DNA of 64,000 nt, taken from assembly GCF_023374055.1 (NCBI RefSeq), contig NZ_JAMBEP010000001.1, forward strand, positions 744,001 through 808,000. The letters are read 5' to 3'. The position numbers and the translations under genes are program-made. Source of the stretch: Luteimonas galliterrae (lineage in GTDB: Bacteria; Pseudomonadota; Gammaproteobacteria; Xanthomonadales; Xanthomonadaceae). Shown piece after piece: positions 4,644 to 43,696 of the stretch. A model generated the notes under the pieces. The model saw only the letters and a list, made by a program, of their open reading frames with translations, was not told where the DNA came from and did no database searches. Each line of letters opens with the position of its first letter. The first letter of the stretch is position 1.

Positions 4644-4722
4644 GTGGGAGCGGCTTCAGCCGCGAGCTTTTTTCATGCGCGGCGATCGGAAAACAAGAGC
4701 TCGCGGCTGAAGCCGCTCCCAC
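4644..4722. repeat. REP-like palindrome (GAGCGGCTTCAGCCGCGAGC family), copy 1
   Basis: Two arms, GTGGGAGCGGCTTCAGC at the left and its complement at the right, enclose about 30 unrelated bases. They form a long hairpin in the convergent gap between recN and fur. At least five more copies occur in the window (near 6935, 43588, 46145, 50772 and 56596), all intergenic or touching a stop codon. The hairpin may act as a bidirectional terminator here. Confidence 0.9.
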
Positions 4723-4741
4723 GAAAAGCGCGCAGTGAGGC

Positions 4742-5143
4742 TCAGCGTTTCTTGCGGACGTACAGCACGAGCGAATGCTCTTCCAGCAGATAACCGTGCC
4801 GGGCGGCGATTTCGTGCTGCAGCTTCTCGATCTCGACGCTCTCGAACTCGATGATCTTGCCGGTATCGATGTCCACCATGTGGTCGTGGTGGCCGCCGCG
4901 GTCGAGCTCGTAAACCGCATGCCCGCCCTCGAAGTTGTGCTTCAGGACCAGGCCGGCCGCTTCGAACTGGGTCAGCACGCGGTAGACCGTGGCCAGGCCG
5001 ATCTCCTCGCCCTCTTCCAGCAGGTGCCGGTAGATGTCTTCTGCCGTCATGTGCCGCGGCTTGGACTGCTCCAGCAGCTCCAGGATGCGCATCCGGGGGT
5101 GGGTGACCTTCAGGCCGACCTTGCGTAGATCTTGCGATTCCAT
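4742..5143 (-). CDS. fur: Ferric uptake regulator Fur
   Basis: 133 aa from ATG 5143 (MESQDLRKVGLKVTHPR), preceded by GGAG at good spacing; an in-frame extension to 5167 is unlikely. The N-terminal winged helix includes AEDIYRHL and GLATVYRVLTQFE. The C-terminal dimerisation domain has the metal-binding HHDHMVDIDTGKI. Fur is an iron-dependent repressor of iron uptake. The protein contains no cysteine at all, so it lacks the CxxC structural zinc site of E. coli Fur. It is divergent from bamE/omlA, an arrangement known from Xanthomonas (fur-omlA). Confidence 0.97.
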   Translation of the reverse strand: MESQDLRKVGLKVTHPRMRILELLEQSKPRHMTAEDIYRHLLEEGEEIGLATVYRVLTQFEAAGLVLKHNFEGGHAVYELDRGGHHDHMVDIDTGKIIEFESVEIEKLQHEIAARHGYLLEEHSLVLYVRKKR

Positions 5144-5250
5144 CAGCACTCCGTGCGCGATAACCAAGGATGAACGCGTTGGCGGGCGCGGGCGGGGCCG
5201 CGTGGCTTCGGTGTATTATCGCCGCAATCCGCCCCAGCCGCGAACCCTGA

Positions 5251-5655
5251 ATGCGCAAGCCGAGCCAAGCCGTCCTCCTCGTCCTCATCGCCGCCCTCAC
5301 CGCCGGCTGCGGCATCGTCTACCGGCAGCCGATCTACCAGGGCAACCTGCTGGAAAAGAGCGCGGTGGACCAGTTGCAGCCCGGCATGGGCAAGCAGCAG
5401 GTCGCAGCGCTGCTCGGTTCGCCGTCGATCGCCGACCCCTTCCACCACGACCGCTGGGATTACACCACCACCCAGCGCACCGGCCGCGTCGGCAAGACCG
5501 AGGTCAAGAATCTCACCCTGCATTTCGAGAACGACACCTTGACCAAATGGGAAGGCGAATACTTCCCCGAGCAGGACGAACAACTGGCGATCCTGGCGCC
5601 CAAGCAATTCGGCTACAACCTGAAGAGGGACGACAAGAAAAAGGGCGGCCGCTGA
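5251..5655 (+). CDS. bamE: Outer membrane protein assembly factor BamE (OmlA/SmpA family lipoprotein)
   Basis: 134 aa. A lipoprotein signal peptide ends in the lipobox LTAGC (Cys at about 20), and the conserved BamE core follows: QGNLLEKSAVDQLQPGM, QVAALLGSPSI and DRWDYTT. BamE is a small lipoprotein subunit of the BAM complex that folds beta-barrels into the outer membrane. The C-terminus is lysine-rich (KRDDKKKGGR). A TATTAT sequence at 5214-5219 could be its -10 element. It is divergent from fur, with which it shares a 107-bp promoter region. Confidence 0.95.
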   Translation: MRKPSQAVLLVLIAALTAGCGIVYRQPIYQGNLLEKSAVDQLQPGMGKQQVAALLGSPSIADPFHHDRWDYTTTQRTGRVGKTEVKNLTLHFENDTLTKWEGEYFPEQDEQLAILAPKQFGYNLKRDDKKKGGR

Positions 5656-5668
5656 TCGTTCGGCGCGC

Positions 5669-5923
5669 TCAAGCCTTGCGCGCGCGGCGACGCCGCGCCT
5701 CTTTGGGGTCGGCCTGCAACGGCCGCAGCAATTCCACCCGGTCGCCCTCGCCCAACACCGTATCGGCCCGCACGCGCTGGCCGAAGACCGCATAGCCGTC
5801 GATCCCTGCGATATCGCTCCAGCCCGCGGCGGCGACGGCATCGGCCACGGTGGCACCGGTCGGCAATTGCAGCGTCGCCGATTCGGCGCGCCGCGGCCAG
5901 GCCAGCACTACTTCGATCTTCAT
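5669..5923 (-). CDS. rnfH: RnfH family ubiquitin-like protein
   Basis: 84 aa with a beta-grasp (ubiquitin-like) pattern. It starts MKIEVVLAWPRR, has the family segment GYAVFGQRVRADTVL, and ends with EGDRVELLRPLQADPKEARRRRA, the typical RnfH tail. Its biochemical role is not established. It lies 3 bp downstream of ratA on the same strand, the usual ratA-rnfH pair, so the two are very probably co-transcribed. Recognition is by family resemblance. Confidence 0.93.
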   Translation of the reverse strand: MKIEVVLAWPRRAESATLQLPTGATVADAVAAAGWSDIAGIDGYAVFGQRVRADTVLGEGDRVELLRPLQADPKEARRRRARKA

Positions 5924-5926
5924 AGT

Positions 5927-6352
5927 TCAGCCGCGGTCCGCGGTGCGGACGAAATCGTCGACCATGCGGTCGGCCAGGCCTTGCAGGCCCAGCGCCACCG
6001 CTGGCGCCAGCAGCTTGGACGCCGCCTCGAACGACAACGTCAGCGTCACTTTGCAGGCCGACTCGTCGAGCGCATGGAATTCCCAGCGCCCGCCGAGTGC
6101 CTTGAACGGCCCTTCGCGCAGCTTCATGTCGATATGGTGCGGCGGCGCCAGCGAGTTCTCGGTGACGAACCAGGTGCGGAAGCTGCCCAGCTTCAGATCC
6201 AGCCGCGCCACCACGCGGCTCTCGCCGGCTTCCAGCACCTGGGCCGATTCGCACCAGTCGAAGCGCCGCGGGTAGGCGCCGATATCGTTGACCAGCGCGA
6301 ACATGCGGGCGGCGGAATGTTCGACCAGGGCGGAGCGATGGATGGTAGGCAT
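5927..6352 (-). CDS. ratA: RatA family START/SRPBCC protein (coenzyme Q-binding, COQ10-like)
   Basis: 141 aa, a single SRPBCC/START hydrophobic-pocket domain (MPTIHRSALVEHSAARMFALVND at the start, LTLSFEAASKLLAPAVAL near the end). E. coli RatA was described as a toxin blocking 70S ribosome association, while homologues (COQ10) bind ubiquinone; sequence alone does not decide between these roles. It is followed by rnfH on the same strand and is divergent from smpB across 46 bp. Length and motifs are normal. Confidence 0.92.
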   Translation of the reverse strand: MPTIHRSALVEHSAARMFALVNDIGAYPRRFDWCESAQVLEAGESRVVARLDLKLGSFRTWFVTENSLAPPHHIDMKLREGPFKALGGRWEFHALDESACKVTLTLSFEAASKLLAPAVALGLQGLADRMVDDFVRTADRG

Positions 6353-6398
6353 GGCGGGAAATTAGCGCGCCAGGCCCCCATCGGGGACAATGGACACG

Positions 6399-6905
6399 AT
6401 GAGCAAGACTTCCAACAAGAAGGCCGGCAAGGATAAGGCAAACGGCGGCGGGACGATCGCGCTGAACAAGCGCGCGCGCCACGACTACCACTTGGAGCAG
6501 CGCTTCGAAGCCGGCCTGGCGCTGCAGGGCTGGGAGCTGAAGGCGATCCGCGCCGGCCGCGCCAATATCGTCGAAGCCTACGCGATGATCCTCAAGGGCG
6601 AATTGTTCCTGATCGGGGCGCAAATGACGCCGTTGATCTCCGCTTCGACCCACGTCGTGGCCGACGCCCACCGCACCCGCAAACTGCTGCTGCACAAGCG
6701 CGAGATCGACGAGTTGATCGGCCGCGTGCAGCGCGACGGCTATACCTTGGTGCCGACCGCCCTGTATTGGAAAGGCAACAAGGTGAAGGCGGAATTGGCC
6801 CTGGCCAAGGGCAAGCAGTCGCACGACAAGCGCGAAGCCGCCAAGGACCGCGATTGGGCGCGCGACAAGCAGCGTCTGATGCGACGCCACAACAAAGACG
6901 CCTGA
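6399..6905 (+). CDS. smpB: SsrA-binding protein SmpB
   Basis: 168 aa from ATG 6399 ([11 protein letters not shown]). An in-frame ATG at 6390 lies only 3 nt after a GGGG stretch, so the start is uncertain by three codons. SmpB binds tmRNA and delivers it to stalled ribosomes for trans-translation. Visible family motifs are [33 protein letters not shown] and the basic tail [16 protein letters not shown] that enters the decoding centre. Its partner RNA, ssrA, lies 2.4 kb away at 9368, the common smpB-ssrA neighbourhood. Confidence 0.97.
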
Positions 6906-6934
6906 ACCGTCCTCTCCTTGTAGATCGGCTTTTT

Positions 6935-7012
6935 GTAGGAGCGGCTTTAGCCGCGAGCTCTTTCTCCAAGCGCGTCGCCGCTCGAAAAGCTCGCGGCTAA
7001 GGCCGCTCCTAC
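6935..7012. repeat. REP-like palindrome, copy 2
   Basis: Arms GTAGGAGCGGCTTTAGC and its near complement (a G-for-A change in the right arm), in the convergent gap between smpB and the histidine kinase gene. Same family as the repeat at 4644; probably also serves as a transcription end for both genes. Confidence 0.88.
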
Positions 7013-7032
7013 AAAAGCACGCGTCTACAAAA

Positions 7033-9252
7033 TCAGGCGCCCTCGCCAGGCAACGTGAATTTGAATGTCGCGCCCTCGCCCGGCTTGCCGTCGGCCTGGA
7101 TCGTGCCGCCGTGGCGTTCCACGATCCGCCTGACCGAGGCCAGTCCGATGCCGTGTCCGCTGAACTGCTCCTGGCTATGCAGGCGCTGGAACGGGCGGAA
7201 CAATTTTCCGACGTAATCCGCTTCGAAACCGGCGCCGTTGTCGCGCACTACGAAAACCGGTTCGTCCGCGACACCCCGCGTCTCCCGGAAGAATTCGATC
7301 CGCGGCCGGTCGCAATCGCGGGTGAACTTCCAGGCATTGCCCAACAGGTTCATCAACAGATTGCGCACCAGTGCCGGGTCGCCGACGGCCTGCAAACCGG
7401 GCGCGATCGCCACCTCGACTTCGCGACCCGGCTCGGCGCTGCGCAATTCGGCGACCACTTCGGCCGCCAGTTGGCTCAGATCCAACGGCAACGGATTGAG
7501 TTGGCTGCGGCTGAGGCGGGACATCTTCAGCAAGGCTTCGATCAGCTCGCTCATCCGCGAGGTGGCGTTGCGGATCCGCGCCAGATAGTCGCGGCCCGCT
7601 CCGTCAAGCTGCTGCTGATAGCGTTCGGCGAGCAGGCGGCTGAAGCCTTCGATCGACCGCAACGGCGTGCGCAGATCGTGCGAAATGCTGTATGCGAACG
7701 ACTCCAGCTCGTTGTTGGCGGCGCTCAGCTCGCGCGTGCGCTGGGCGACGCGGGTCTCCAGCGTGCGGTTCAGGGCGCGCACCTGCGCTTCGGCGTGCAG
7801 CCGCTCGCTGACGTCCTCCACCTGCACCAGGCGGGCGATGTCCTGCCCCACGTTGCCTGGCACCGGCGCGTAAGTGAGCTGCACATAACGTAGCTCGTCG
7901 TTGCGGTGCAGCCGACGCGTGGTCCGATACACGCCCTCCGCTACCGCTTCCATCTCGGTCGTGCGGATCGGATCGGTGGCGTCGTCGAACAGGGACGAGA
8001 AAGGCACGCCCGCCAGTCGCTCGGGGTCGCGCCCGACGATGTCGCACAAGGCGGGATTGGCTTCGACCACGCGCCCTTCGTGGTCCAGCAGCGCCTTGCC
8101 GATCGCCGAATACACCATCGCCATGCGGAAGCGCTGTTCGCTGCGCCGATAGTCCTCGGTCAATTGCGTGGCGATCTGGCGGGCACGGTTCTCGGTCCGC
8201 GCCAACAGCATCGCCAGCCAAAACAGCAGCAGCGACGACAGCAGTCCGACCAGCAACAGCGTGCGCAACCCGGCCAGGCCCGGACTGATCGCTTCCGCAG
8301 GGCCCGAACGGAAGTCCATGCGCCAGCGCCGCCCGTACGCTTCCGATTGCACGCTGCGCGAGAAAGCGGCTTCGTCCGATTTGCCGAATTCGGCGTCGGT
8401 GTACAACAGTTCCGCCTTCGGCCCCGTGTCGTCGTAGATCTGCAGTTGGATGCCTTCGTAACGATCGCGGTACGGCAACGCCGTCTGCACCAGCGCCGGC
8501 ATATGAAACGGGATATAGACCCAGCCCTGCAACGATTCCCGCCGCGCATCCAGGCTCCGGGGCGTGTCGCCGAGGCGGAAGATCGGCGAGTACAGCAGAA
8601 GGCCCGTCTGCCGGCTCCCGGCGAAATCGTCCTGCAACAGCTTCACCGGTCCGGACAGTCGCGGCTTGCCGCTGTCGCGCGCTGCGATCATGGCCGTGCG
8701 CCGCACGGGCTCGGAAAACATGTCGTAACCGATCACGCCGCGGTTCTCCAGCGTCATCGGCGCCAGGTACAGGATCGGCCCGTAGTTGGCGCGGACGCCC
8801 GGCGGCCGTATGCGGAACAGCCCATAACCGGCGTCGTGGCTTTCGATCTGCAACTGGCGCAGTCCGTCCGGCGTCACGTACGGCGCGAAGCCCATGCCCA
8901 GCAGGCCGGGAAAACGTTCGCGCGTATCCAGGCCATCGACGAAGGACTGCCACTGCTGCGGCGTCGGCCGCACGCTGGCGAACAGCGCGGCGCCGCCGCC
9001 CAGCGCCAACTCGTAGTTGATCATCCGCTGCTGGACCAGCGCGGCCATCTGCTGCGTGGCGGAAACGAAATCCGCCTGCGCCGCGCTCATTTCCCGCTCG
9101 TAGGCGTTGCGCCAGAACAGGATCACCGACGCCACCGAACCGAGCAGCACCGCCAGCGCCAGCAAATAGCCCCGGAAAGGCGTCACCGGCACATGCCTGC
9201 CGTATTCGCCGGGCGGTGGAGCCGATGCGGGGGGACGGGCCTGGGCGCTCAT
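7033..9252 (-). CDS. CHASE-PAS sensor histidine kinase
   Basis: 739 aa from ATG 9252 (MSAQARPP); the frame opens to 9345 but that would run into the ssrA promoter. There is a membrane segment near 27-47 (YLLALAVLLGSVASVILFW), a periplasmic CHASE-type domain (about 60-310, GLLGMGFAPYV and LYLAPMTLENRGVIGYDM), a second membrane segment (about 340, LLLVGLLSSLLLFWLAML), and a PAS domain with PAC tail. A coiled coil leads into HisKA with phospho-acceptor His525 in SISHDLRTPL, then HATPase_c (N box LLGNAWKF, G boxes DNGAGFE and GHGIGLA). It senses an unknown extracellular ligand. No response regulator gene is adjacent, so it is an orphan kinase. Confidence 0.92.
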   Translation of the reverse strand: MSAQARPPASAPPPGEYGRHVPVTPFRGYLLALAVLLGSVASVILFWRNAYEREMSAAQADFVSATQQMAALVQQRMINYELALGGGAALFASVRPTPQQWQSFVDGLDTRERFPGLLGMGFAPYVTPDGLRQLQIESHDAGYGLFRIRPPGVRANYGPILYLAPMTLENRGVIGYDMFSEPVRRTAMIAARDSGKPRLSGPVKLLQDDFAGSRQTGLLLYSPIFRLGDTPRSLDARRESLQGWVYIPFHMPALVQTALPYRDRYEGIQLQIYDDTGPKAELLYTDAEFGKSDEAAFSRSVQSEAYGRRWRMDFRSGPAEAISPGLAGLRTLLLVGLLSSLLLFWLAMLLARTENRARQIATQLTEDYRRSEQRFRMAMVYSAIGKALLDHEGRVVEANPALCDIVGRDPERLAGVPFSSLFDDATDPIRTTEMEAVAEGVYRTTRRLHRNDELRYVQLTYAPVPGNVGQDIARLVQVEDVSERLHAEAQVRALNRTLETRVAQRTRELSAANNELESFAYSISHDLRTPLRSIEGFSRLLAERYQQQLDGAGRDYLARIRNATSRMSELIEALLKMSRLSRSQLNPLPLDLSQLAAEVVAELRSAEPGREVEVAIAPGLQAVGDPALVRNLLMNLLGNAWKFTRDCDRPRIEFFRETRGVADEPVFVVRDNGAGFEADYVGKLFRPFQRLHSQEQFSGHGIGLASVRRIVERHGGTIQADGKPGEGATFKFTLPGEGA

Positions 9253-10338: not shown

Positions 10339-10467
10339 GACGAAACTCCTTGCTTCATCATCATTGGAAATCGCATCCCCCGATACATTTGTTGTGTGGA
10401 CAACCTGAACTTTCAGCTAGATGGCATGTTGAGTATCGCTTCGCTCAACTCATCCTATGCCAACTTG

Positions 10468-11178
10468 CTAATGTCGAAATTCGATCATGAATTTTCGATC
10501 TAGGGTGAAATTAACGGGAATACGGACCAAGCCCGAGAATTTAATGCCGTTTTTTGTAACCCACGGATAATAGCGCCATCTTTTCGCCGCCTCAGCGGCA
10601 GCACCGTCCAGTAAATCGTCACCACTCGATTGCCCAATCAATATCTTCTTCGGCAGGCCATTCGAATCTACAGTTACGACAAGAAGCACCATGCCGTGCC
10701 CACGGGCCCGTGAAACCTCCCGAGGTACCTTTGGCATATGTTTGCGTGCCCATTCGATGTCCAAGCTTGCTCCCGTCATTGGTTGACGGGTCGCCATATT
10801 GCTTTCCGCCTTTGCCAATACGGCAGACCACGGGGCCGTGTCGTGGAGTCCGATCAGATCTGGGTCTTCCTTGAGGTGTTTTAAGTCCCAGAAGTACGGG
10901 TTGTTGATAGCTTTCTCTAGATACGACATGGCTTCCGTCTCACGACCCGCCAGGGCTAAGCAACAGGCCGCGTTGTAGTGATCAACCTGCATGGCCTGAT
11001 CGTCCTTGAAAAATTGGCTTGTCGCATTGAACGAATCTAGAAATAAGTTCGCGCATGCAGCGTAATCTTTTTCCTCATAAGCTTTCATTGCTTGCTTTGC
11101 CATCTCTTCTGACTGAGCACTCACGTTTGTGGATATCAACACCAGCAGACCGGCGAATACAATCATGCGTAAAGACAC
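10468..11178 (-). CDS. Secreted protein with TPR-like repeats and TonB C-terminal domain
   Basis: 236 aa from a GTG start at 11178 with AAGGAG six bases upstream. A signal peptide (MIVFAGLLVLISTNVSAQ) precedes a tetratricopeptide-like helical region at about 25-110 (AYEEKDYAACANLFLDSF, YNAACCLALAGRETEAMSYLEKA). The C-terminal ~90 residues look like a TonB_C domain (HGMVLLVVTVDSNGLPKKILIGQSSG, AAAEAAKRWRYYPW, VRIPVNFTL). Unlike classical TonB it has no uncleaved N-terminal membrane anchor or proline-rich spacer, so it is unlikely to energise receptors. Function unknown. Confidence 0.75.
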   Translation of the reverse strand: MSLRMIVFAGLLVLISTNVSAQSEEMAKQAMKAYEEKDYAACANLFLDSFNATSQFFKDDQAMQVDHYNAACCLALAGRETEAMSYLEKAINNPYFWDLKHLKEDPDLIGLHDTAPWSAVLAKAESNMATRQPMTGASLDIEWARKHMPKVPREVSRARGHGMVLLVVTVDSNGLPKKILIGQSSGDDLLDGAAAEAAKRWRYYPWVTKNGIKFSGLVRIPVNFTLDRKFMIEFRH

Positions 11179-40598: not shown

Positions 40599-40833
40599 TA
40601 CGCTCCCGTGGCGAAGACCGGCGGTGATCTTCGAATCATTGGGCTCCTGCGGCGGATTATTGAATATTCCGCGCGACATTCCTATCGATTCCCGGCGCCC
40701 GGCGTCGTGCGCAGGCGCATGACGGCATCAATACGGTAGCGTTTGCGGCGAGCCCGGACCGTTCCGATCGGTTCGGCGCATTACGGGCCGGGCCGGCTTT
40801 TCGGTATAAAGCGGACACGGACAAGGAAATCGC

Positions 40834-42714
40834 ATGCGGTTCGACAACGTCTACATCACCTCCACGGGCGCCTATTTCCCGGGCGACCCGGTCGGCAACG
40901 ACGACATCGACCGTTACATCGCGCCGATCAACGCCCTGTCGCCGCGGATCAAACGCCGCATCCTGGGCGAAAACGGCATCCAGACCCGCCATTACGCCCT
41001 GGACGAGCAGGGCCGCAGCACGCACACCTGCGCGGCGCTGGCCGCCAACGCCGTACGCGCCTGCCTGGGCGACGATGCCCAGGCGGCCTTGCGCGAGATC
41101 GACCTGCTGGCCGCGGCCAGTTCGTCCGGCGACCTGATCCTGCCCGGCTTCGCCAACATGCTGCAGGCCGAACTGCGCGCGCCGGCGATGACCACGGCCA
41201 GCCATCACGGCGTCTGCGCATCGGGCATGGCGGCGCTGCAACATGCGGCGCTTGCGCTGCAGCATGGGCAGCACCGCAATGCAGTCGTGGCGGCGGCGGA
41301 ATTCCCGTCGCGGTTGTTCAAGCGCTCGCGTTTCGCTCCGGGCGGCTACAACGCCGATTTCGACGCGCACTTCTTGCGCTGGATGCTGTCCGACGGCGCC
41401 GGCGCATGGCGCCTGTCCACGCGTCCCGGCGCCGGCATCGCATTGAAACTCGAGCGTCTGCACCTGAAATCCTTCTCCGGCGAATTGCCTTTGTGCATGC
41501 AAGCCGGTCAGGCGCCCGACGGCAGCCTGTGGGGCGACCACGAGGATTTCACCGCCGCCGACGCGGCAGGCGCGATGCTGCTGCGCCAGGACATCCGCCT
41601 GCTACCGCAACTGTTCGACGTGGCCACGCACGAATACGTGAAGCTGGCGCAGGCCGGCGCCATCGATCCGGCCGCGGTCGACCACTTCCTCTGCCATTAT
41701 TCTTCTGAGCGCTTCGCGCCGGTGGTCAAGCAGTGCCTGCAGTTGGCGCAACTCGATATTCCCGAAGACAAGTGGTACAGCAACCTGAAGTTCCGCGGCA
41801 ACCTAGGCTCGGCATCGATCTTCACCATGCTCGACGATTTCCTGCGCGAGCGGCGACCGCAGCCGGGGCAGAACATATTGCTGTTCGTGCCGGAATCCGG
41901 ACGTTTCACCGTCGCCTTCGCGCTGCTGAAAGTCGTCGATGCGGACGCGCCCGCAACGCAGACCGCGGCGACGACGCGAGCGATCGAACCGCCCTCGCCC
42001 TCGCCCGTGCCGCTGCCGGCGCCGCCGCATGCCGCCGACGACAGGCAACTGCCCGAAGTCGCGCGCCTGCTGCGCGAACTGGCCCTGGTCTGGCACGACT
42101 ACCGCAGCCGGGTCTGGAAAACGCCGCTGGTCGGCAAGATCCTCGACGGCAGCGTCGGCAAGGCCGATTACGTCGGCTGGATGGAGCAATGGGTGCCGCA
42201 GGTACGCCAAGGCAGCCTTTGGATGCGTAAAGCGGCCGACCACCTCACGCCGAAATACGCCGTGCTGCGCGACACCGTTCGCCACCACGCCGACGACGAA
42301 CAGTTCGACTACGACGTGCTGTTCGAGGATTACCGCAACGCCGGCGGCAAGGTCGCCTCGCTCGACGAGCTCAAGCGCAATCCCGGCGGCGAAGCGCTCA
42401 ACGCCTACCTGCATGCGCGCGCCGCGCAACCCGACGCGCTGGGCCTGCTCGGCGCGATGTACGTCATCGAAGGCACCGGCCAGCGGATCGTGCCGGCGCT
42501 GTTGCCTTTGCTGCGGCAGCGGCTGGGCTGGCTGGGCCGCAGTTTCAACTTCCTGGCCTATCACGGAGAGAACGACGTGGCGCATCTGCAACGCTGGCTG
42601 GCGGCGGTGGAAACCGCGCTGGCCATCGGCGGGCGCGACATCGCCGACGACATCGTCGATGATGCGCGCCATGTGGCCGCGCTCTACGCCAGGCAGTTGG
42701 AGATGATCCGGTGA
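40834..42714 (+). CDS. Fusion of ketoacyl-ACP synthase III-like domain with heme-oxygenase-like diiron (HDO) domain
   Basis: 626 aa in two domains. Residues 1-375 are a thiolase-fold ketosynthase III with the complete triad: Cys128 (HHGVCASGMAAL), His288 (LCHYSSERF) and Asn323 (FRGNLGSASI). After a Pro/Ala-rich linker (about 380-405), residues 410-626 form a helical bundle of the TenA/PqqC/heme-oxygenase-like superfamily. It carries a set of potential iron ligands: Glu451 (WMEQW), His485 with Glu489 (HHADDE), Glu546 (YVIEGTG), His577, Asp581 and His584 (HGENDVAH). HDO enzymes oxidise or cleave acyl and amino-acid chains (UndA makes alkenes from fatty acids). A combined condensing/oxidising step on a fatty chain is inferred; the product is unknown. 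GTGA overlap with the next gene. Confidence 0.85.
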   Translation: MRFDNVYITSTGAYFPGDPVGNDDIDRYIAPINALSPRIKRRILGENGIQTRHYALDEQGRSTHTCAALAANAVRACLGDDAQAALREIDLLAAASSSGDLILPGFANMLQAELRAPAMTTASHHGVCASGMAALQHAALALQHGQHRNAVVAAAEFPSRLFKRSRFAPGGYNADFDAHFLRWMLSDGAGAWRLSTRPGAGIALKLERLHLKSFSGELPLCMQAGQAPDGSLWGDHEDFTAADAAGAMLLRQDIRLLPQLFDVATHEYVKLAQAGAIDPAAVDHFLCHYSSERFAPVVKQCLQLAQLDIPEDKWYSNLKFRGNLGSASIFTMLDDFLRERRPQPGQNILLFVPESGRFTVAFALLKVVDADAPATQTAATTRAIEPPSPSPVPLPAPPHAADDRQLPEVARLLRELALVWHDYRSRVWKTPLVGKILDGSVGKADYVGWMEQWVPQVRQGSLWMRKAADHLTPKYAVLRDTVRHHADDEQFDYDVLFEDYRNAGGKVASLDELKRNPGGEALNAYLHARAAQPDALGLLGAMYVIEGTGQRIVPALLPLLRQRLGWLGRSFNFLAYHGENDVAHLQRWLAAVETALAIGGRDIADDIVDDARHVAALYARQLEMIR

Positions 42715-43592
42715 GCAAGACCGAAGCCTGGCTGCATGCGCCGCACGATCCTCGCGATCCCAATCCCTGGCTCGCGCTCTATCTCGATGCCAGCGGACCC
42801 TTGGCGGACGAAGTCAAACGCGCCTGGCTGTCGGATGCCGCTTCCCGTTCGCGGCAATTCGTCCTGCCGGTGGTGCGGCCGCTGGCGCGGCTGGCGATCG
42901 TGCTGATCCAGCTGCTGAAGATCGTGATGCCGAACGATCTGACCTCGTCGCGGATCCTGCACCGGCTGATCGTTTGGGGCATGAAGACTTTCGTCCGTCC
43001 CGAAGCGAACTGGCTGATCCTGCGCCATTTCCACCTCGGCTCGCAGGTGCTGGCCTTCATCGGCGCCAATGCGCTACCTGGGCAGACGCTGCCGTCTCAT
43101 CCGCTGAAACCTGCCGATATCGACGCGCTGCGCGACGACGTCTTCCTGCAGCACGACCTGAACCTCTTCAATTTCGTGATCAACCTGAACCGCGCGCTCG
43201 GCGGGAAGCCGATCGAACCGCCGGCGCGGCCGGATTTCTCGATGATCGACCAGCCGCCGCTGCGCCTGCAGGACATGCCGGACCGCTGGACCAATTTCAT
43301 CGACCTGCAGACCGCGATCGAGGTCTACACGCCGGTGTACCAATTGTTCCTGACAGACAACGATTTCTGGCGCGCGACCAATTCGCTGCAGCTGGACGAG
43401 GTGATCGGCATTTATGCGGCGACGCTGCTGAAGAAGCCGGAGTATCTGGTCTTCCTCAACAACAAGCATCCGCTGGTGCCGTTGACCACGTTGCGGGCCG
43501 GGTTCCGGCTGGTGCTGCATGGATTGTCGACCGAGATGCTGCATGCGTTGTTGAGCCGCGCGAAAGCCGAGCAAGCCGCCAGCTCTTCGTAA
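42711..43592 (+). CDS. Uncharacterised protein coupled to the KAS III-HDO fusion
   Basis: 293 aa from a GTG start overlapping the previous stop (GTGA). I do not recognise the family. One hydrophobic stretch at about 48-72 (FVLPVVRPLARLAIVLIQLLKIVMP) may attach it to the membrane; the rest is soluble, with the segments EANWLILRHFHLGSQVLAFIG and VFLQHDLNLFNFVINLNRAL, and a C-terminal helical part (LHGLSTEMLHALLSRA). The His/Asp pattern H-x3-S and QHDLN could be metal or catalytic residues, but this is speculation. Strict coupling suggests it acts on, or carries, the product of the fusion enzyme. Its last codons (SSS, stop) lie inside a repeat arm. Confidence 0.7.
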   Translation: MSKTEAWLHAPHDPRDPNPWLALYLDASGPLADEVKRAWLSDAASRSRQFVLPVVRPLARLAIVLIQLLKIVMPNDLTSSRILHRLIVWGMKTFVRPEANWLILRHFHLGSQVLAFIGANALPGQTLPSHPLKPADIDALRDDVFLQHDLNLFNFVINLNRALGGKPIEPPARPDFSMIDQPPLRLQDMPDRWTNFIDLQTAIEVYTPVYQLFLTDNDFWRATNSLQLDEVIGIYAATLLKKPEYLVFLNNKHPLVPLTTLRAGFRLVLHGLSTEMLHALLSRAKAEQAASSS

Positions 43593-43672
43593 GAGCGGCT
43601 TCAGCCGCGAGCTTCTTGTGCCGAACGATCGCGATTGGTAAAGCTCGCGGCTGAAGCCGCTCTTACGAAGAG
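43581..43672. repeat. REP-like palindrome, copy 3
   Basis: AGCTCTTCGTAAGAGCGG...CCGCTCTTACGAAGAGC around the GAGCGGCTTCAGCCGCGAGC core. The stop codon of the preceding gene is within the left arm. Convergent gap with the OmpA-like gene. Confidence 0.9.
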
Positions 43673-43696
43673 CAGAGCCCTCGCTTCCGGAATGCC

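Follow-up and report, generated by a model that had tools for sequence, protein, structure and literature searches.

A ketosynthase joined to a heme-oxygenase-like domain and encoded with a DUF6999 protein in Luteimonas and its relatives

Background

What kind of chemistry might bring a ketosynthase (KS), an oxidase-like helical domain and a protein of an uncharacterized family together on two overlapping genes? The question is raised by a locus on the plus strand of a 64,000-nucleotide stretch of Luteimonas galliterrae DNA (hereafter the window), which comes from a 3.6-Mb genome of the Lysobacteraceae that is closest in sequence to Luteimonas and to uncultured Xanthomonadaceae. The first gene (40834-42714, stop codon included) encodes 626 residues, made up of a ketosynthase domain (residues 1-370, 40834-41943), a Pro/Ala-rich linker (residues 371-405, 41944-42048) and a heme-oxygenase-like (HO-like) domain of the HDO (heme-oxygenase-like diiron) type (residues 406-626, 42049-42711). 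The second gene (42711-43592) encodes a DUF6999 protein of 293 residues, and its GTG start codon overlaps the stop codon of the fusion gene, so that the two share the four bases GTGA (42711-42714). Both reading frames and their overlap lie exactly where an initial annotation, made from the letters of the DNA, had placed them. All of these parts fall into recognized superfamilies except DUF6999, which has been named but is uncharacterized. Our search of the open-access literature found no paper on DUF6999, and none describing a KS-HDO fusion, although reports may exist elsewhere.

Results and discussion

Fused and split forms of a three-part locus

The two genes occur together well beyond the window. 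Among 198 genomes of the family, 27 carry the fusion, and DUF6999 is found in exactly those 27 (raw counts, with kinship ignored), which supports the tight coupling to the second gene put forward in the initial annotation. Using DUF6999 to locate the corresponding region on 80 independent genome contigs, we found a clear single-ORF fusion beside it in 74, with the four-base overlap of stop and start codon repeated in 34 of these. Since the same fusion recurs in one open frame in so many related loci, the pairing is not an artefact of assembly. The six loci without a clear fusion ORF include three truncated contigs (L074, L101 and L128), a locus in which KS and HDO lie nearby on the opposite strand (L106), and two Variovorax loci (L091 and L107) in which DUF6999 has no fusion nearby. 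These last two were considered as instances of DUF6999 without a fusion and rejected, as the fusion is present elsewhere in each genome; in both, the set has been rearranged, with a hydroxylase and DUF6999 at one site (L091 4546-5418, L107 8001-8873) and the KS-HDO fusion at another. On a wider scale DUF6999 is rare, with 9 occurrences in 398 genomes phylum-wide and 6 in an alphaproteobacterial sample of 289, and in the genomes checked it was never seen without KS and HDO.

The same parts also occur as separate proteins. Seven distant loci, six of them alphaproteobacterial and one from a divergent gammaproteobacterium, carry KS and DUF6999 as separate genes, with order and shared strand unchanged. 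Between the two, an HDO gene of its own is resolved in L145, L146, L162, L163 and L166, and HDO homology is likewise present between them in L164 and L165, where the ORF picker took an overlapping frame. A tree of the KS sequences needs one change between the split and the fused form (support 85/99; the root is not fixed, the outgroup branch being very long), and is thus consistent with a single fusion event. That the three proteins are fused in one group of organisms and neighbours in another constitutes strong evidence that KS, HDO and DUF6999 have a joint function. Whether the locus moreover encodes two core components of a conserved module of three proteins, consisting of a StlD/DarB-like ketosynthase, an HO-like dimetal oxidase and DUF6999, is in our judgement evenly balanced.

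Two of the split loci have distinctive neighbours. In the alphaproteobacterial locus L145, a protein of 1133 residues combining MFS, acyltransferase and AMP-ligase parts, of the LplT-Aas (lysophospholipid-acylation) type, adjoins the split KS-HDO-DUF6999 genes (4697-8098). In L146, the most divergent locus, the split KS is preceded by a small His-rich membrane protein of 187 residues with no Pfam match (10441-11007).

A ketosynthase close to StlD and DarB

The KS domain is most similar to StlD and DarB (Photorhabdus stilbene, dialkylresorcinol). Its best NCBIfam match is the StlD/DarB family beta-ketosynthase model NF005293, which aligns over its full length to residues 6-368 with 319 bits, compared with 55-77 bits for the FabH models. 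StlD is also the best match in the PDB by sequence (5gk0; residues 4-368, E 1e-61) and the best match by fold (Foldseek E 7e-30, TM 0.86-0.91 by target length). The 319 bits nevertheless fall short of the 450 that NCBIfam sets as cut-off for NF005293 (the cut-off for DarB being 550), and the window KS is only 34-36% identical to StlD/DarB. For this reason we call the domain StlD/DarB-like, a relative of the family rather than a member as judged from its sequence, and its reaction may differ from that of StlD/DarB. It shares with them homology over the full length, the catalytic triad and the fold, and is set apart by its fusion to an HO-like domain and by its partners, namely DUF6999, a hydroxylase and a desaturase. 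The Cys-His-Asn triad of KAS III enzymes, described as intact in the initial annotation, is indeed so: Cys128, His288 and Asn323 are unchanged in 83 of 83 aligned sequences, split homologues included.

The same annotation had pointed to OleA, which carries out head-to-head Claisen condensation, and this comparison was not borne out in detail. OleA does appear among the Foldseek matches with a TM of 0.81 by target length (the best 50 matches of the whole fusion being ketosynthases only), and it has the same thiolase-superfamily KS fold and similar catalytic residues, but StlD is well ahead of it in both sequence and fold. Furthermore, OleB, C and D are not beside the fusion: as far as the neighbourhoods are concerned, the window has a glucokinase gene upstream and an OmpA-like gene (so called by inspection) downstream, both on the minus strand, and the neighbours in the relatives are FAH, FAD and DUF6999. 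One could still envisage that an OleA-like head-to-head condensation produces a 2-alkyl-3-keto acid, from which an UndA-like oxidative removal of the carboxylate would give an unsaturated ketone or a hydrocarbon, given that fatty acids are decarboxylated by UndA, itself an HDO (PMC13108848), and that the membrane fatty-acid enzymes described below suit acyl substrates. In addition to the nearer kinship with StlD and the glucokinase and OmpA-like genes in place of OleB, C and D, however, the HO-like domain is without the helix-1 E-H motif common to UndA, BesC, SznF and CADD (PMC11363339), and we consider this route unlikely.

The kinship with StlD/DarB itself suggests a different outcome. The KS could form a 1,3-cyclohexanedione out of two acyl chains, as DarB and StlD do, and the HO-like domain could take the place of the usual aromatase, resulting in a dialkylresorcinol or quinol that might serve as a signal or an antioxidant. 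The cyclohexanedione/resorcinol reaction of the family is cited in PMC8406957, and PqqC provides an example of an HO fold capable of ring oxidation (PMC13108848). Against this, the KS scores under the cut-offs for both DarB and StlD/DarB, and resorcinol clusters are not known to include a membrane hydroxylase or desaturase; such a product strikes us as improbable.

An HO-like domain with an altered helix 1

The C-terminal domain is assigned an HO-like fold on the basis of sequence profiles and helix content rather than a fold search. Residues 513-618 match PF14518 (Haem_oxygenas_2) with 36.5 bits (E 5.6e-9; gathering cut-off 28.9 bits), and a profile of 23 homologues matches a single PDB chain, 3dde, across the whole domain (E 1.9e-10). 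The AlphaFold model of the fusion (mean pLDDT 87.5, pTM 0.62) consists of an alpha/beta ketosynthase, a disordered linker (pLDDT below 50 at residues 376-395) and an all-helical C-terminal domain with helices from 407 to 623; the pTM is as expected for two domains joined by a flexible linker. An HO-like domain and the Pro/Ala linker, both put forward in the initial annotation, are thereby supported. 3DDE is a TenA/THI-4-like HO-fold protein without an assigned function, which has the conserved H, E, E, H, D and H positions in common with the window protein and differs from it in being stand-alone. UndA, which converts a free fatty acid to a 1-alkene, is absent from the PDB matches of the profile, and is likewise a stand-alone protein, whereas the domain studied here is fused to or operonic with a KS.

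HDOs bind their metals through a Glu followed by a His in helix 1, a Glu in helix 2 and a His-Asp/Glu-His set in helix 3, and the helix-1 Glu-then-His of this E-H-X-H-D-H pattern is present in about 85% of HDO groups (PMC11363339). Seven residues of this chemical type are invariant in our 83 sequences, even though the split homologues among them are only 31-39% identical: His485, Glu489, Asp492, Glu546, His577, Asp581 and His584. The helix-2 Glu (Glu546) and the helix-3 set (His577, Asp581, His584) are therefore found in 83 of 83, and the spacing H485-61-E546-31-H577-x3-D581-x2-H584 fits that of the ligands of AetD (H79, E140, H172, E176, H179; PMC10654658). Of the ligands put forward in the initial annotation, His485, Glu546, His577, Asp581 and His584 are accordingly retained, and Glu451, which is present in 48 of the 83 sequences only, was rejected. 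Helix 1 departs from the common pattern, in that no conserved acid precedes His485 at -3 (V482), -7 (L478) or -10 (Y475), and the invariant acids instead follow it at +4 and +7. The absence of the Glu-before-His pair makes dimetal binding less certain; Glu489, at i+4 of His485, is a candidate for the missing helix-1 ligand. Compared with the HDO superfamily (UndA, BesC, SznF, AetD, MboA), the domain thus has PF14518, the helix-2 Glu, the helix-3 H-x3-D-x2-H and an AetD-like spacing in common, and is distinguished by a helix-1 carboxylate that comes after the His (H485-x3-E489) rather than before it, and by its position behind a ketosynthase.

The missing helix-1 Glu could also be taken to mean that the domain is not a dimetal oxidase, and is instead metal-free, mononuclear, or structural or protective in function, similar to PqqC or TenA, or to DtpC of Acinetobacter. 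HO-fold enzymes do include mononuclear and metal-free ones (PMC11363339), the HDO DtpC can guard against oxidative stress (PMC13232832), and a possible helper carboxylate at position 459 varies between Glu, Gln and Val. The seven invariant His, Glu and Asp residues speak against this reading, most of all in its metal-free form, since one would not expect all seven to be retained in an enzyme that binds no metal, and we regard it as quite improbable.

Glu459 was itself considered as an essential ligand and rejected, as the position is Glu in 74 sequences, Gln in 9, including the window protein, and Val in L106. Codon 459 (42208-42210) specifies Gln in the window, in several Luteimonas (L057-L062, L068) and in L111, all of them without an adjoining desaturase; Glu459 is kept in three other loci of the Luteimonas group (L063, L064 and L066). 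The window genome also encodes a second, stand-alone PF14518 protein (L160, G000:C5:127032-127520, 50.7 bits), which contains an E-x9-H-like stretch reminiscent of SznF-type HDOs.

The DUF6999 protein

The initial annotation recognized no family for the product of the second gene, which turns out to match Pfam DUF6999 (PF22523) over profile positions 1-275 of 275, with 423.9 bits against a cut-off of 27. Its AlphaFold model is all-alpha (pLDDT 86.9, pTM 0.88) and is without a fold match in the PDB or in viral structure libraries. The possibility of a hidden HDO or another known fold was rejected (best E 1.9 in the PDB and 0.26 in BFVD), the weak matches to PolF having a TM of about 0.12. The residues His106, His148-Asp149, Asp198, Asp229, His270 and Glu275 are invariant, which makes a role as an enzyme plausible, and the most hydrophobic stretch of 19 residues, beginning at residue 51 with a Kyte-Doolittle mean of 1.9, makes contact with the membrane possible.

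Membrane-bound partners

Of the 70 loci with enough upstream sequence, 58 encode a membrane-bound fatty-acid hydroxylase (PF04116) upstream of the fusion and 56 a membrane-bound fatty-acid desaturase (PF00487), with both in 52. The two are found just upstream in most betaproteobacteria and in other Lysobacteraceae; the eight loci that have neither all belong to the Luteimonas group around the window, and neither gene adjoins the alphaproteobacterial loci. No ACP gene adjoins the fusion/DUF6999 pair in the window, and the earlier statement that no pathway gene is adjacent is correct there. It does not carry over to the relatives with hydroxylase and desaturase directly upstream, and the window genome does possess the hydroxylase, unlinked, on contig 2 (G000:C2:192874-193650; PF04116, 77.5 bits), with no homologue of the desaturase. 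Across the family, the hydroxylase is present in 25 of the 27 fusion-bearing genomes compared with 0 of the 171 others (raw counts, with kinship ignored). For the desaturase the figure is 13 of the 27, and none of the remaining genomes among the 198 has it. That the hydroxylase has been retained though unlinked argues that it still serves the KS-HDO pathway, a concrete prediction at which an inspection of the gene neighbourhood by itself would not arrive. These two membrane-bound partners also strengthen the case for an acyl or lipid product, and to that extent the unusual oxidized lipid suggested in the initial annotation. The cold-shock desaturases of Caulobacter (PMC8552747) were considered as well, and no link to the KS-HDO module was found.

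A possible mode of action

What is observed here is the identity of the domains, how they are conserved, the order of the genes, their occurrence in both fused and split form, and their co-occurrence. To this the scheme that we infer adds metal binding, the order of reactions, the substrate and the product, while C-C bond formation by the KS, activation of O2 by the oxidase and acyl-chain oxidation by the membrane enzymes are carried over from their families. The KS would take up an acyl chain on Cys128 and join it through a C-C bond to another acyl chain carried on ACP or CoA, in the manner of StlD/DarB, to form a beta-keto or cyclized compound. The tethered oxidase, using a dimetal centre and O2, would then immediately oxidize this product by dehydrogenation, aromatization or oxidative decarboxylation, such that the hand-over from KS to oxidase would correspond to a two- or four-electron oxidation, and tethering would prevent the reactive keto intermediate from leaking. 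DUF6999 might act on or bind the same intermediate, or support the oxidase, and the membrane hydroxylase and, in some lineages, the membrane desaturase would oxidize the acyl chains further. We see about equal grounds for accepting and for doubting the core of this proposal, the likeliest of the readings considered here, in which the KS would join two acyl chains and the oxidase would turn the product into an oxidized lipid or a lipid-derived small molecule. One could further speculate, tentatively and with some doubt, that the locus represents a class of lipid biosynthesis not described before, with the KS product passed within a single chain to a dimetal oxidase whose helix-1 ligands come in an unusual order, and with DUF6999 as an obligatory third enzyme that has a new fold.

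DUF6999, for which the PDB offers no fold relative, in this way gains a context that bears on function, and the KS-HDO fusion is an added architecture for the expanding HDO family. The apparent lipid pathway is widespread, extending over Luteimonas, Lysobacter, Variovorax, Bordetella, Collimonas and some alphaproteobacteria.

Signals around the genes

The motif AAGGA (40823-40827, plus strand), read in the sequence, is likely the ribosome-binding site of the fusion gene, and a simple consensus scan revealed no sigma-70-like promoter and no intrinsic terminator at the locus. The stop codon of the DUF6999 gene is spanned by a perfect 33-bp inverted repeat with a 26-bp spacer (43582-43673), the core of which, GAGCGGCTTCAGCCGCGA, is present in 12 copies in the window (at most 2 mismatches) and 306 in the genome, in the manner of a REP-like element.
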